From Duncaniella muris (GTDB lineage: Bacteria > Bacteroidota > Bacteroidia > Bacteroidales > Muribaculaceae), in the NCBI RefSeq assembly GCF_003024805.1, contig NZ_PUEC01000014.1, positions 1-64,000 of the forward strand: a DNA stretch of 64,000 bases. The letters are read 5' to 3'. The translations under genes and the position numbers were made by a program. Positions within the stretch are counted from its first letter, which is position 1. The number at the start of each line of letters is the position of its first letter. Of the stretch, positions 33,524 to 39,224 are shown in pieces. The notes beneath the pieces were generated by a model. It did no database searches, was not told the origin of the DNA, and saw only the letters and a list, made by a program, of their open reading frames with translations.

Positions 33524-35251
33524 TCAGTCGGCATCTGAAAGCTTACGACGTGAAGCTTTTTCGATGGCCTGCTGATAGGCTGTGTCGTAATAGCGTATAA
33601 ATTTCGACCAGGCCGCTTCAGATGCAGTGTTCATTGCGGCCTTGTGGATTTTCTTAGTTTCTTTTTCGCCGGCTTCTGTCAGATATTCAAGAGAGTGGGC
33701 TATGTTTTCGACTACGGAGCGATAGTTCGAGTCGCCGCGGCCTATGACATTGACGCCGCATTCGTCGAAATAGTTTTCGAAACTTTCAAGAACCCACTGG
33801 CCGAAGCCTGAAAGAGAGGTTGTCACAGTCGGTACTCCGAAAGCCACACTTTCAAGCGGGGTGTAGCCCCAGGGTTCATAATATGAGGGGAATACAGTGG
33901 CATCAGCGCCGGGCAGGAGGTCGTAATAGCTCATGTTGAATATGCCGTCGGTGCCGTTGAGATAGCAGGGGACGTAGATGACTTCGACACGCGGATCGAT
34001 CTCTGTGAATCCCAGCTGGTGCATGCGGCAGTTGACTGCGTCTGATTCCGGATTGTTGAGCCAGTGGGTGATCACCGGGTCATTGAGCGGGGCTTCATCG
34101 TTGACCAGCGGAGCTTTTTCAAGAGTTCCGAGTCTTTCGGCGAGGTCCGCGCGGGCTTCTTTGGGCCATGCGGGCACCATTACGAATGCTATGATATTGC
34201 GGGCAGGCTTGCAGCGCTTCAGTTCGTCGCAGACGTCAAGGAAGAGGTCGAGACCTTTGTTGCGGTATTCGCAACGGCCGCTGGTGATGACTATAAATGA
34301 GTTCGGGTCAATCTTTTTGCCGGTAAGGGCCGAAGCTACAGACAGCATTTTGTCGCGGGCAGCTTTGCTGGCAGCCGGCAGTTTAGCGGCAGCCGGCACG
34401 AAGTTCTTTTCAAAACCGTTGGGAGTGACCACGTCAGGACGGCGTTCAAGCAACTGCTCGCATTCTCTGGCAGTGATCTCGCTTACGGTAGTGAACGAGT
34501 CTGCGGCATGGGCCGCTGCCTTTTCGAGCGAATGTTTGGCCTCCATGTTCAGCTCGCGGGCCATCTGGTCGCCGTTATAGCCGTCAAGATAGTCGTAGAG
34601 AGGCTTGTTGTTGCCGCAGATGCTGCGACCGATGCTTGTGGCGTGGGTTGTGAAAACGGTGCCGACCTTCGGAAGTTTCCAGCGCACATACAGAAGCCCC
34701 ATGCCGGTGGTCCATTCGTCGAAATGGGCCACTATGCGGGTCTGTTTCTTGCGTCCGCGCTTTCCGGCGGGCTGTACCGGCTGGCCGAAGCCTGATTTTA
34801 TTATAGATTCGATGACTACTCCGGATGCATGGGCGAAAGCGCAGCCTTCGTCATAATCGCCATAGGCATGAAGCGAATCGACGCCGAAGCGCTTCCACAT
34901 TTCGCCGTAAAATTCGTCTTTTACGGCATACATGCCATCGAATTTTACAAGTACAGCGATCGGTCGTCCGGGAATTTCCCAACGGCCTACTCTTACGCTC
35001 ACTCCTTCAGGAAGTTTGGCGTTGAGTGCCCAGTCGGAAAGTCCGGTGATTTTGCATTCTGAAAACCAGGGAGAAGGTGTGTCCGTGGTCCATACGTCAG
35101 GACCGATGAAGATGGTTTTGTCTTTGAATTGTTTCTGAAGAGTCTTGGCCTTCGTGGACAAGACGGTGTAGATGCCGCCAATCTTGTTGCATACCTCCCA
35201 GCTAACTTCGAAGAGGAGATCGACCTGTGGTATGGCAGGTGTTTTGTCCAT
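33524..35251 (-). CDS. Glycogen synthase, GT3 type
   Basis: This 575-residue glycosyltransferase has the animal/fungal-like GT3 signature near the N-terminus ([18 protein letters not shown]) and the C-terminal nucleotide-sugar region ([29 protein letters not shown]). It is distinct from the GT5 GlgA type. It builds alpha-1,4-glucan from a sugar nucleotide. The first gene of the two-gene glycogen unit. Confidence 0.93.
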
Positions 35252-35288
35252 TCTTAAAAATTACTATGTTGTTTTTCGTTTCAGGCTG

Positions 35289-35322
35289 CAAAGGTAAGCA
35301 TTTTTTTCTAAATATCTGCAAG
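35289..35322 (-). promoter_or_regulatory. Promoter of the glycogen unit
   Basis: On the minus strand TACCTTTG (35296-35289) is a perfect -7 box, 37 bases before the synthase ATG. The best -33 candidate is CTTG (35322-35319), 22 bases away. The -33 half lies inside the 62-bp repeat. Confidence 0.6.
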
Positions 35323-35361
35323 ATAGACTAAAAATGGCATAGATTTTGTATTGTGGGCATT
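35300..35361. repeat. 62-bp direct repeat, left copy
   Basis: This stretch matches 36723-36784 at 59 of 62 positions (mismatches near 35334-35341). The two copies bracket the alpha/beta hydrolase and a truncated gene. In this copy the -33 TTTG of the GH28 promoter is kept, but no -7 box follows. Confidence 0.85.
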
Positions 35362-35570
35362 GAAAGCACGTTTGAAAGCATGTTCAAGCACATTCAGCTG
35401 TACGTTCAGCAAGCTGTTTTTGTAGACTGGTCCTATTGGCTCCCCTGTTCCTAATCTTCAGTCACCATGCTACAGTATGGTTCCATCAGATTATGAATAG
35501 GTTAGCTCAAAAATACATCCACTCCGGCTTCACATTTGTTATTAAACAACCTCTAATACTCACGAGTAGA

Positions 35571-36416
35571 TCACTGCCGGTTCGGGTCAAGACATATCTC
35601 GGAGTAAAGCCAATCAGATGCAAGTGAGGCTGCTTGGGCTGTGTTGCCTGTAAAGCTGTGGTCTTCGCCGTCAATGAGCCGGATAGAGGCGTTTTCAAGG
35701 TCGTGACGGAATCGCTCTCCATATGTGTATGGCACTATCCGGTCGGCTTTACCGTGTATGATGAACGTAGGGCCGGTGTAGCGGCTTGCAATCTCATAAA
35801 TGGGTAGTTCGCGGGCGGCTACAATGTAGTCGCGGCCAAGTTTCAGTCCATTTGGCATTGTTATGTATTCCGGAACATTCCACGGATCATATATGGCTCC
35901 CATAGTGTTTCCGCGCAGTGCGTCATCGCGCAATACGGCAGCAGGGGCCATCAGCACAAGTGACCTGATTTCTATGTCGCCAAGTTCTCCGGCGGTCATT
36001 GCCGCCACTACTCCGCCTTGAGAGTGTCCGAGCAATGAGATGTTTTTTGCAAAATTCTGAGTCCGGACCCATTTTATCACCGTTTTTGCGTCTTCGATTT
36101 CATTTGGCACGGTCATATTCCGGAATTCGCCGTCGCTTTTGCCGTGGCCGTTGAAATCAAATCTGACTACCCCGATGCCTTTTGCCACAAGGTCGGATGA
36201 GATGTCATCAAACAATTCTCCGTCCATGCAGCCCATAAAACCATGACAAAGTATGACTATCGGCAATTTTTGGGCTGTCTCTATCTGTGGCAGTTGCAGA
36301 TGTGTGGCGAGACGCCCTACAGAGCCCTGAATGTAGAAAACGGAATCGGTCTGTGCCGACAGGCCGAGACAACATAAGACTGTGGTTATGATTAATATAA
36401 TGTGCTTCATCTTCAT
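35571..36416 (-). CDS. Secreted alpha/beta hydrolase
   Basis: This 281-residue protein has a signal peptide (about 1-21, ending GLSAQ). The nucleophile Ser132 is in GHSQGG, the acid Asp in HGKADRIVPY, and the His in DGEDHSF; the oxyanion region is CHGFMG. It is of the dienelactone hydrolase/cinnamoyl-esterase-like type and could be an esterase for plant polysaccharide side groups, which would suit the GH28 gene nearby (inference). It stands alone between the two 62-bp repeats. Confidence 0.85.
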   Translation of the reverse strand: MKMKHIILIITTVLCCLGLSAQTDSVFYIQGSVGRLATHLQLPQIETAQKLPIVILCHGFMGCMDGELFDDISSDLVAKGIGVVRFDFNGHGKSDGEFRNMTVPNEIEDAKTVIKWVRTQNFAKNISLLGHSQGGVVAAMTAGELGDIEIRSLVLMAPAAVLRDDALRGNTMGAIYDPWNVPEYITMPNGLKLGRDYIVAARELPIYEIASRYTGPTFIIHGKADRIVPYTYGERFRHDLENASIRLIDGEDHSFTGNTAQAASLASDWLYSEICLDPNRQ

Positions 36417-36609
36417 TGTCAGATGTTTTTATTCAGTTGCAGGCGATATTCTTTAGAAGTACCGCGGAAGTGTTTTTGAAGCAGGAGATGCTTCGTGAAT
36501 TTTTATGACTGAGATCTGTTTTCGGCAAAGATAACAATAATCAGCCATTCTGACAAAGATGACAAGATTTGCATAGTGAAAACAACTCAATAACAATAAC
36601 GGTCAGATT

Positions 36610-36789
36610 ATGAACAGATATATCACATCTCTGATAATTGCATTTTCGTCATTGACAGCAATCAATGCCCAGAACATCAATATTACCAATATCCCAAGTT
36701 TGACCGGGAGTTTGACAGCTGGATTTTTTTCTAAATATCTGCAAGATAGACTAAAAAAGACACAGATTTTGTATTGTGGGCATTTCTGA
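36610..36789 (+). pseudogene. 5' remnant of a secreted-protein gene
   Basis: From ATG 36610 the frame encodes a signal peptide-like start (hydrophobic to about residue 20, ending INAQ) and about 18 further residues. It then runs into the 62-bp repeat at 36723, where it continues as unrelated codons to a stop at 36787. The gene seems to have been cut at the repeat border; the remaining body is missing. Confidence 0.55.
36723..36784. repeat. 62-bp direct repeat, right copy
   Basis: Matches 35300-35361 at 59 of 62 positions. It supplies the -33 element of the GH28 promoter and cuts off the upstream secreted-protein remnant. Confidence 0.85.
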
Positions 36790-36798
36790 GTACCTTTG
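36768..36798 (+). promoter_or_regulatory. Promoter of the GH28 gene
   Basis: TTTG (36768-36771), 19 bases, TACCTTTG (36791-36798), about 60 bases before the ATG. The -33 is within the repeated segment and the -7 just outside it. Confidence 0.75.
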
Positions 36799-36857
36799 CG
36801 GGGAAAATCACATTTCAGTCTGCTAAATTTTTTAATTTACAAATAATGTATATAACC

Positions 36858-38297
36858 ATGAAGAAAACTTTGATGGCGCTGGCATTGGCGCTGGCATTTG
36901 TCGGCATGCCTGCAGAAGCGCAGAAAAAGGGCAAGACCCCTGACGAAGCGGCCAAGGCATGGGCCGAACTGTATCCCGAAATAGAGAAATCGATCAAGGC
37001 TCCTACTTTCCGTGAGAAAGATTATCCTCTTTTCAAATATGGCAAGAAGTCAAAGACCCAGGGCTATCTCTACACTCAGCTTATTAACAAGGTGATAGAC
37101 CGCTGTTCGCGTGAAGGCGGTGGCCGAGTGGTGATTCCTGCCGGAACCTGGCTTACAGGCCCTATCACTCTCAAGAGCAATGTCAACCTCCATCTTGAAG
37201 AGGGTGCCACTCTGCTGTTCACTCCCGATCTGAAGGAGTATCCTCTGGTGCGCACTCGCTGGGAGGGCATGGACTGCTACAATTATCAGCCTATGATCTA
37301 TGCCTACGAGCAGGAAAACATTGCTATCACAGGCAAGGGCACAATCGACGGCGGTGCCGAGATCGAGAACTGGTGGCGCATGTGTGGCGCGAAGAGCTAC
37401 GGCTGGGAAGACGGCAAAGGCATCATCTCGCAGCGCATCGGACGTCCGCTTCTCATGGAGTGGAACGAAAAGGGTGTGCCTGTGGAGGAACGCCGCATGG
37501 GTGACGGTTACGGCATGCGTGTGCAGCTCGTCAATCCGGTCAAGTGCAAGAATGTGCTGATCGAGGATGTCACTCTGCTTCGCTCTCCGTTCTGGGTGAT
37601 CCATCCGCTGCTGTGTGAGAACCTTACGGTGCGTGGCGTGCATATTCAGAATGATGGCCCCAACGGTGACGGCTGTGACCCTGAGTCATGCAAGAACGTG
37701 CTGATCGAACGCTGCTATTTCGACACCGGCGATGACTGCATCGCTATCAAGAGCGGGCGTAACCGCGACGGCCGTACTGCAAACATTCCGTCAGAAAATA
37801 TCATTGTGCGCAACTGCAAGATGAAAAACGGCCACGGCGGTGTGGTTGTTGGCAGCGAGATCTCAGGCGGTTTCCGCAACCTTTTTGTGGAAGACTGCGA
37901 GATGGATAGCCCTGAACTTGACCGCGTGATCCGCATCAAGACCAATAACTGCCGCGGCGGTGTGATCGAGAACATCTATGTGCGCAACGTGGAAGTGGGC
38001 CAGTGTAAGGAAGCTGTGCTGAAGATCAACCTTGTCTACGAACAGCGCGAAATCTGTCAGCGTGACTTCAACCCGACCGTGCGCAATGTCTTCCTTGACA
38101 ACGTGAACTGCCGCAAGAGCAAATACGGTGTGCGCATCGACGGTTTCGATGATATCTGCAATGTCTACAATGTAGAGGTCAAGAACTCTGTGTTCGAAGG
38201 TGTGACCGACGGAGCTTTCATGCTCAACGGCCAGACTGCCAATGTGCGTTTCTCAAACCTCAAAATCAACAGTGGAGTGCTCAAGCCTCTGAAGTAA
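36858..38297 (+). CDS. GH28 polygalacturonase-like glycoside hydrolase, secreted
   Basis: This 479-residue protein has a signal peptide (about 1-22, ending PAEA) and a right-handed beta-helix. All GH28 catalytic segments are present: NGDG (Asp271), GDD (Asp292, Asp293), GHGG (His326) and RIK (Arg359, Lys361). It should cleave galacturonic-acid linkages in pectin or rhamnogalacturonan, in the periplasm or outside. The ATG at 36858 gives a proper signal peptide; the longer frame starts in the promoter. It faces the sus genes across a terminator. Confidence 0.92.
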   Translation: MKKTLMALALALAFVGMPAEAQKKGKTPDEAAKAWAELYPEIEKSIKAPTFREKDYPLFKYGKKSKTQGYLYTQLINKVIDRCSREGGGRVVIPAGTWLTGPITLKSNVNLHLEEGATLLFTPDLKEYPLVRTRWEGMDCYNYQPMIYAYEQENIAITGKGTIDGGAEIENWWRMCGAKSYGWEDGKGIISQRIGRPLLMEWNEKGVPVEERRMGDGYGMRVQLVNPVKCKNVLIEDVTLLRSPFWVIHPLLCENLTVRGVHIQNDGPNGDGCDPESCKNVLIERCYFDTGDDCIAIKSGRNRDGRTANIPSENIIVRNCKMKNGHGGVVVGSEISGGFRNLFVEDCEMDSPELDRVIRIKTNNCRGGVIENIYVRNVEVGQCKEAVLKINLVYEQREICQRDFNPTVRNVFLDNVNCRKSKYGVRIDGFDDICNVYNVEVKNSVFEGVTDGAFMLNGQTANVRFSNLKINSGVLKPLK

Positions 38298-38423: not shown

Positions 38424-39042
38424 TTATCCGGCTATGGGGATGCGGCAGACGGCGAATGTCTTGGCCGGAAGAGTTAAAGTGGCGGTGTTTCCGCTTGCCG
38501 GAAGAATGGATTCCACTGGGATAATGCGGTCTGGATTCTCCAGAGTGTTGTCGCAGTCAAGGTCCGGAGTGCCGTCGGAGCGGAGGGGGGCGGAGAGGGT
38601 GATGATACGTCCGTCGGCCAGAGAGCGGCCTTTTTTCAGTTTCTGAAAATTCAGGGTGATATCCTTCGGGCTGTCAGAGGTGTTGGCAATCTTTACAATG
38701 TAGCGTCAGCCCTGTAGCCTTGTCTTTGTGAGGAGCGGCGGAAAGTCTGACGTAGTGTGGATTGCGGTCAAAGGGTCCGTCGTCAAGCAGGGCGACTGCT
38801 CCGAAACTTTCCCAGCCCATAAGGTTCTGAGGAAATTCGAAAGAGCGGTTTTTGACCATTTCGGCGTAGAGGCCGCCGTCAGCGGCATAGTTGATGTCTT
38901 CGAAGAAGAGTCCGTACATTGTCGGTTGTATTTCGGCTCCCGGACGGTCGGTGCGGATGATGAATTCTTCGGCTTGTATTGGCAGACCGGATACGATGGC
39001 GGTGAGCATTGAGCATACGGTGGTCCTGAATCTGAGTTTCAT
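38424..39042 (-). pseudogene. GH51 alpha-L-arabinofuranosidase pseudogene (large internal deletion)
   Basis: From ATG 39042 the frame encodes a signal peptide and the N-terminal arabinofuranosidase start (RPGAEIQPTMYGLFFEDINYAADGGLYAEM, ending near KDKATGLTL). At about 38700 the frame fails and a second, shifted frame continues with what looks like the C-terminal beta-domain (YIVKIANTSDSPKDITLNF ... FAVCRIPIAG), stopping at 38424. About 200 codons remain of the several hundred usual for secreted members. The catalytic barrel, including both Glu residues, is missing, so the product cannot be an active enzyme. It sits downstream of susE. Confidence 0.8.
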
Positions 39043-39224
39043 GGTGCTGGGGAATGATGTTTTGTGGGTTAGTTTCAGGCAAAGATCCGAAAAATTCAAA
39101 AATATGGCCACCCGGCCTGTTCCCTGAATCGGGAATCAGGCCGGGTGGCGCTGAGATTGAAATAAGGGTGCGTTGTCAGTGGGTGTGGCCGGTGGCCACT
39201 TAGGGGCCGTTTTTTAACGTTCTG

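Follow-up and report, generated by a model that had tools for sequence, protein, structure and literature searches.

Structure of the glycogen synthase–GH28 locus

The window, a stretch of 64,000 nucleotides of Duncaniella muris (genome G000), carries a glycogen synthase (GS) gene and a GH28 glycoside hydrolase gene in divergent orientation, between which a 62-bp segment occurs twice as a direct repeat (59 of 62 positions identical, with a spacing of 1,423 bp). Repeat pairs this good are expected by chance in 64 kb about 1e-22 times, and a third copy of the 62-mer was not found in the genome. Both the repeat and what lies between its copies, a secreted hydrolase reading frame and the 5' stump of a second gene running up to the right copy, had been described in the initial annotation and were recovered as described; the stump begins with an ATG at 36610. 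From left to right, the features are the following:

33524-35251, minus strand: glycogen synthase (GS), the left flanking gene
35289-35296, minus strand: predicted -7 element of the GS promoter, TACCTTTG, just left of the left repeat copy
35300-35361: left copy of the 62-bp repeat, on the GS side, carrying the GS -33 element
35319-35321, minus strand: predicted GS -33 TTG, inside the left repeat, spacing 22
35362-35429: 68-bp segment with a single open frame (ESTFESMFKHIQLYVQQAVFVDWS), at the left end of the insert
35430-35550: right half of a MITE-like dispersed repeat, 121 bp, ending ...TTCACATTTGTTATTAAACAACCTCTAA
35571-36416, minus strand: intact secreted alpha/beta-hydrolase of 281 aa (Pfam Hydrolase_4/Abhydrolase_1)
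36419-36502, minus strand: C-terminal tail of an AraC-type regulator (KFTKHLLLQKHFRGTSKEYRLQLNKNI, then stop), body missing
36526-36556, minus strand: promoter-like site (TATCTTTG, TTG, spacing 20), now upstream of the hydrolase
36568-36591, plus strand: relic of the divergent promoter region that precedes the acetyltransferase gene (21 of 24 positions match L233)
36610-36722, plus strand: 5' stump of a second gene for a secreted hydrolase, ending where the right repeat begins
36723-36784: right copy of the 62-bp repeat, on the GH28 side, carrying the predicted GH28 -33 TTTTG at 36767-36771
36791-36798, plus strand: predicted -7 element of the GH28 promoter, TACCTTTG, outside the repeat and just right of the right copy, spacing 19
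36858-38297, plus strand: GH28 glycoside hydrolase, the right flanking gene

Bacteroides promoters follow a consensus of TAnnTTTG at -7 and TTTG near -33 (PMC7366714). The promoters at this locus were called by sequence match to that consensus; a TAnnTTTG element stands at the matching GS spacing in five congeners, and in all genomes compared, promoters were predicted both for GS (TTG, spacing 22) and for GH28 (spacing 19-20). As the 62 bp contain both -33 elements, that of GS and that of GH28, each flanking gene still has a full predicted promoter, and both promoters are probably complete in the window despite the insertion. The left copy had been thought to have lost its -7 box, a claim that does not hold, since the repeat does not include the -7 box of GH28 and it is GS that the left copy serves.

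Contents of the insert and their relatives

The DNA between the two copies is a mosaic remnant with one intact gene. For the 68-bp segment at its left end, the search for an identity gave a single weak match (E 0.16, 43% over 21 residues), which is not believed. The adjoining MITE half is 93-94% identical to full copies of ~345 bp in G008 and G014. MITE-like elements of this size, with two inverted arms of ~100 bp, are scattered through several genomes of this genus and occur in other genera as well (L010, L011, L031). A multi-copy IS-like repeat breaks the G000 assembly at many contig ends (L002, L004-L008); its own ends (TTAGAGCTTGTTTAAAAACAAATGTGAA) are similar to the MITE ends in the insert. 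A search of the same genome for a donor copy of the insert gave nothing beyond IS/MITE ends, and no known RNA family was found between 35000 and 37000.

The intact hydrolase scores 80.2 bits against Hydrolase_4 and 68.1 bits against Abhydrolase_1 (cut-offs 27 and 25.8). The AraC tail, which ends 2 bp ahead of the hydrolase start, matches the end of the AraC gene of G008 (L235:3460-4635), and the promoter-like site at 36526-36556 resembles the region upstream of AraC in that genome. What is left of the second hydrolase is its signal peptide and ~15 further codons, ~35 codons in all; its relatives, of the S15/DLH type and ~355 aa in length, are found in G008, G143, and G158.

The first hydrolase shares 83% amino acid identity with a copy in another genus (G284) and 43-60% with others, and its distribution is patchy: at E <= 1e-60, relatives occur in 34 of the 397 genomes of the family, and their contexts differ. 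In G284, the 83%-identical hydrolase is preceded by an AraC remnant; G332 has a relative of the first hydrolase with AraC and acetyltransferase genes close by; and in G008 the gene order is AraC, acetyltransferase (frame-broken), and second hydrolase. To judge from these matches, the insert is most likely the remnant of a recurring accessory neighbourhood. The earlier suggestion that a divergent promoter region was duplicated around foreign or rearranged DNA is supported in that the pieces of the insert have their counterparts in genes found clustered at other places in other genomes.

Mobile-element features occur at some loci in other genomes. Tyrosine recombinase genes adjoin the relatives of the second hydrolase in G008 (L235:6666-8015) and G158 (L234:3130-4314), and in G032 a MITE/IS-type end (L137:4720-4742) follows shortly after the stop codon of a related hydrolase gene, as it does in the window.

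The site in related genomes

In five congeners (G008, G020, G005, G017, and G025), whose GS and GH28 orthologues are 78-82% identical, the two genes are divergent and roughly 220-290 bp apart, without the hydrolase; public records agree for four of the five loci, with gaps of 252-273 bp. By this comparison, the 1,361 bp between the repeat copies is an insertion relative to an ancestral short GS-GH28 intergenic region. The initial annotation had expected relatives to have a single copy of the segment between GS and GH28. This is true of the five congeners for the GS-side part (GCATTTTTTTGTAAATATCAGCAAGATA), which is conserved and single, but the sequence of the GH28-side part is not conserved in them, so that only half of the segment is recognisable. 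Two copies and an uncut gene throughout the relatives would have spoken against an insertion, and this layout was not observed.

The filled site is carried by only two genomes, at least one of which is a metagenome-assembled genome (MAG). Besides G000, the insertion is found with exactly the same two junctions in G019 (CAMXAZ01), an uncultured Muribaculaceae MAG. The repeat copies differ from each other at three sites in G000 and at two sites in G019, and thus the duplication need not be very recent.

Another difference between the two genomes lies to the right of GH28. An arabinofuranosidase-like gene for a secreted protein, assigned by reading the sequence, is reduced in the window to a 145-aa stump at 38674-39111 (minus strand) with no Pfam match; its counterpart in G019 is 737 aa long, and G000 lacks about 1.39 kb from inside the gene.

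Divergence between the two carriers

Between G000 and G019, the synonymous divergence (dS) is 0.015 in the hydrolase, 0.20 in the distal part of GS, and 0.21 in GH28, with an intermediate value of 0.05 in the first 152 codons of GS. The non-coding DNA of the insert is only ~1.6% different, and the windows in the insert are the least diverged within 38 kb. Given a dS of 0.015 against about 0.2 in the flanks, the insertion would have reached one or both lineages after their divergence, and a recent passage between two related species appears to have taken place.

The best-fitting tract of low divergence spans 34796-36756 (~2 kb), reaching ~0.45 kb into GS and stopping near the right repeat copy; a block limited to the insert fits worse by 7 log units. 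The left edge falls at 34736-35100, resting on few substitutions, and the right edge at 36660-36900, compatible with an end at the right repeat. The 5' end of GS shows no unusual conservation against the other congeners. As recent homologous recombination would leave it, the low-divergence tract takes in flanking core DNA (GS), and the spread of the insertion is most simply read as homologous recombination through the shared flanks. Nothing specific was found in the literature on transfer in Duncaniella.

Proposed origin and alternative explanations

We consider it probable that a fragment of an accessory cluster was inserted between the GS and GH28 promoters with duplication of 62 bp, that the insert decayed, and that it was later passed on by homologous recombination. 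The fragment, comprising the AraC regulator, the secreted alpha/beta-hydrolase, the acetyltransferase, and the second secreted hydrolase, would have entered between the divergent promoters in a Duncaniella-like ancestor. This first insertion may have been illegitimate. A staggered break with fill-in, or else template switching, would then have duplicated 62 bp or more of the DNA lying between the two -7 boxes; this is the most economical guess. The right gene of the insert is cut off where the repeat begins, so the duplication may at first have exceeded 62 bp and then been trimmed by deletion. Deletions, before or after arrival, would have removed the acetyltransferase altogether, the second hydrolase for the most part, and the body of AraC; a donor locus with the matching order and an intact second hydrolase was not found. 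With the promoters of both neighbours left unbroken, the arrangement would have been tolerated. The completed insertion would then have moved from one of the two lineages to the other, or have entered both, on a homologous-recombination tract of ~2 kb.

Several other explanations have been weighed. It is unlikely that a transposon, its transposase and ends since lost, left the 62-bp repeat as a target-site duplication of unusual length. There is precedent for such lengths, as variable target duplications of 8-514 bp are documented for IS1549 and IS1634 (PMC2266710); moreover, the direct repeats adjoin both ends of the insert, and the GS-side half is single in congeners. However, nothing connects the insert with these elements. 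It has no transposase reading frame and no terminal inverted repeat at its ends, where the best match is below the shuffled average. The internal MITE half has its own end at 35550 and not at a junction; with this end inside the insert, the MITE was rejected as the source of the duplication.

It is quite improbable that the repeats are the attL and attR of an integrase-less integrative element or genomic island that entered twice at one site. Direct repeats flanking an insert far younger than its flanks, as well as a tyrosine recombinase gene beside the second-hydrolase gene in G008 and G158, would fit such an element, but no flanking att-like repeat is present at the G008 or G158 loci (~10 kb read), and the 91.7-kb contig (C6) has no match to the integrase family PF00589, of which the genome has 29. 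Furthermore, a tract reaching into GS is predicted by homologous recombination and not by site-specific entry, and the first half of the repeat is an ordinary conserved GS promoter.

Vertical inheritance from a common ancestor of G000 and G019, with the low divergence due to strong constraint on the hydrolase, is very unlikely. The junctions are identical in both genomes and the hydrolase is intact, as this explanation would have it, but synonymous divergence is 13-fold below that of the flanks and the non-coding part of the insert is similarly little changed. Strong constraint as the cause was rejected, the synonymous and non-coding sites being low too.

There is a very slim chance that the 1,361 bp and one 62-bp copy form a cassette that leaves and enters by recombination between the 62-bp promoter copies; if so, the divergent promoter would be a re-usable landing site at which both promoters are restored each time. 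Finally, a metagenome-assembly chimera is hardly credible: G019 is a MAG, but the same junctions recur in two assemblies between which both the insert and the repeats show substitutions.

Significance and comparison with known systems

Insertion of an accessory fragment followed by homologous recombination, the preferred explanation, is an ordinary kind of genome rearrangement, and no new mechanism is shown. The locus illustrates, on a small scale and with good resolution, how accessory genes may settle in gut Bacteroidales: the insertion was presumably tolerated because the duplicated core left both promoters complete, the cargo is down to one gene, and a recent transfer between related species is probable. 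It also offers a testable case for the survival of insertions between divergent promoters.

Three known systems bear comparison. The first is the MITE related to an IS with TTAGAGSTTGTTTAA... ends. The right half of such a MITE makes up 35430-35550, and the genome also contains a multi-copy IS whose ends are very similar; the MITE is truncated here, however, and its end coincides with neither junction, so it did not make the duplication. The second is the target duplication of the IS1549/IS1634 type, which is alike in that direct repeats of tens of bp adjoin the insertion, and differs in that the insert here is without transposase or terminal inverted repeats. The third, additive horizontal transfer into an intergenic region with later homologous recombination, resembles the present case in the patchy accessory gene, the empty site in relatives, the closest relative in another genus, and the low-divergence tract into one flank. 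The difference is that here the site is marked by a 62-bp duplication of shared promoter DNA, and that the right end of the tract falls at or near the repeat.
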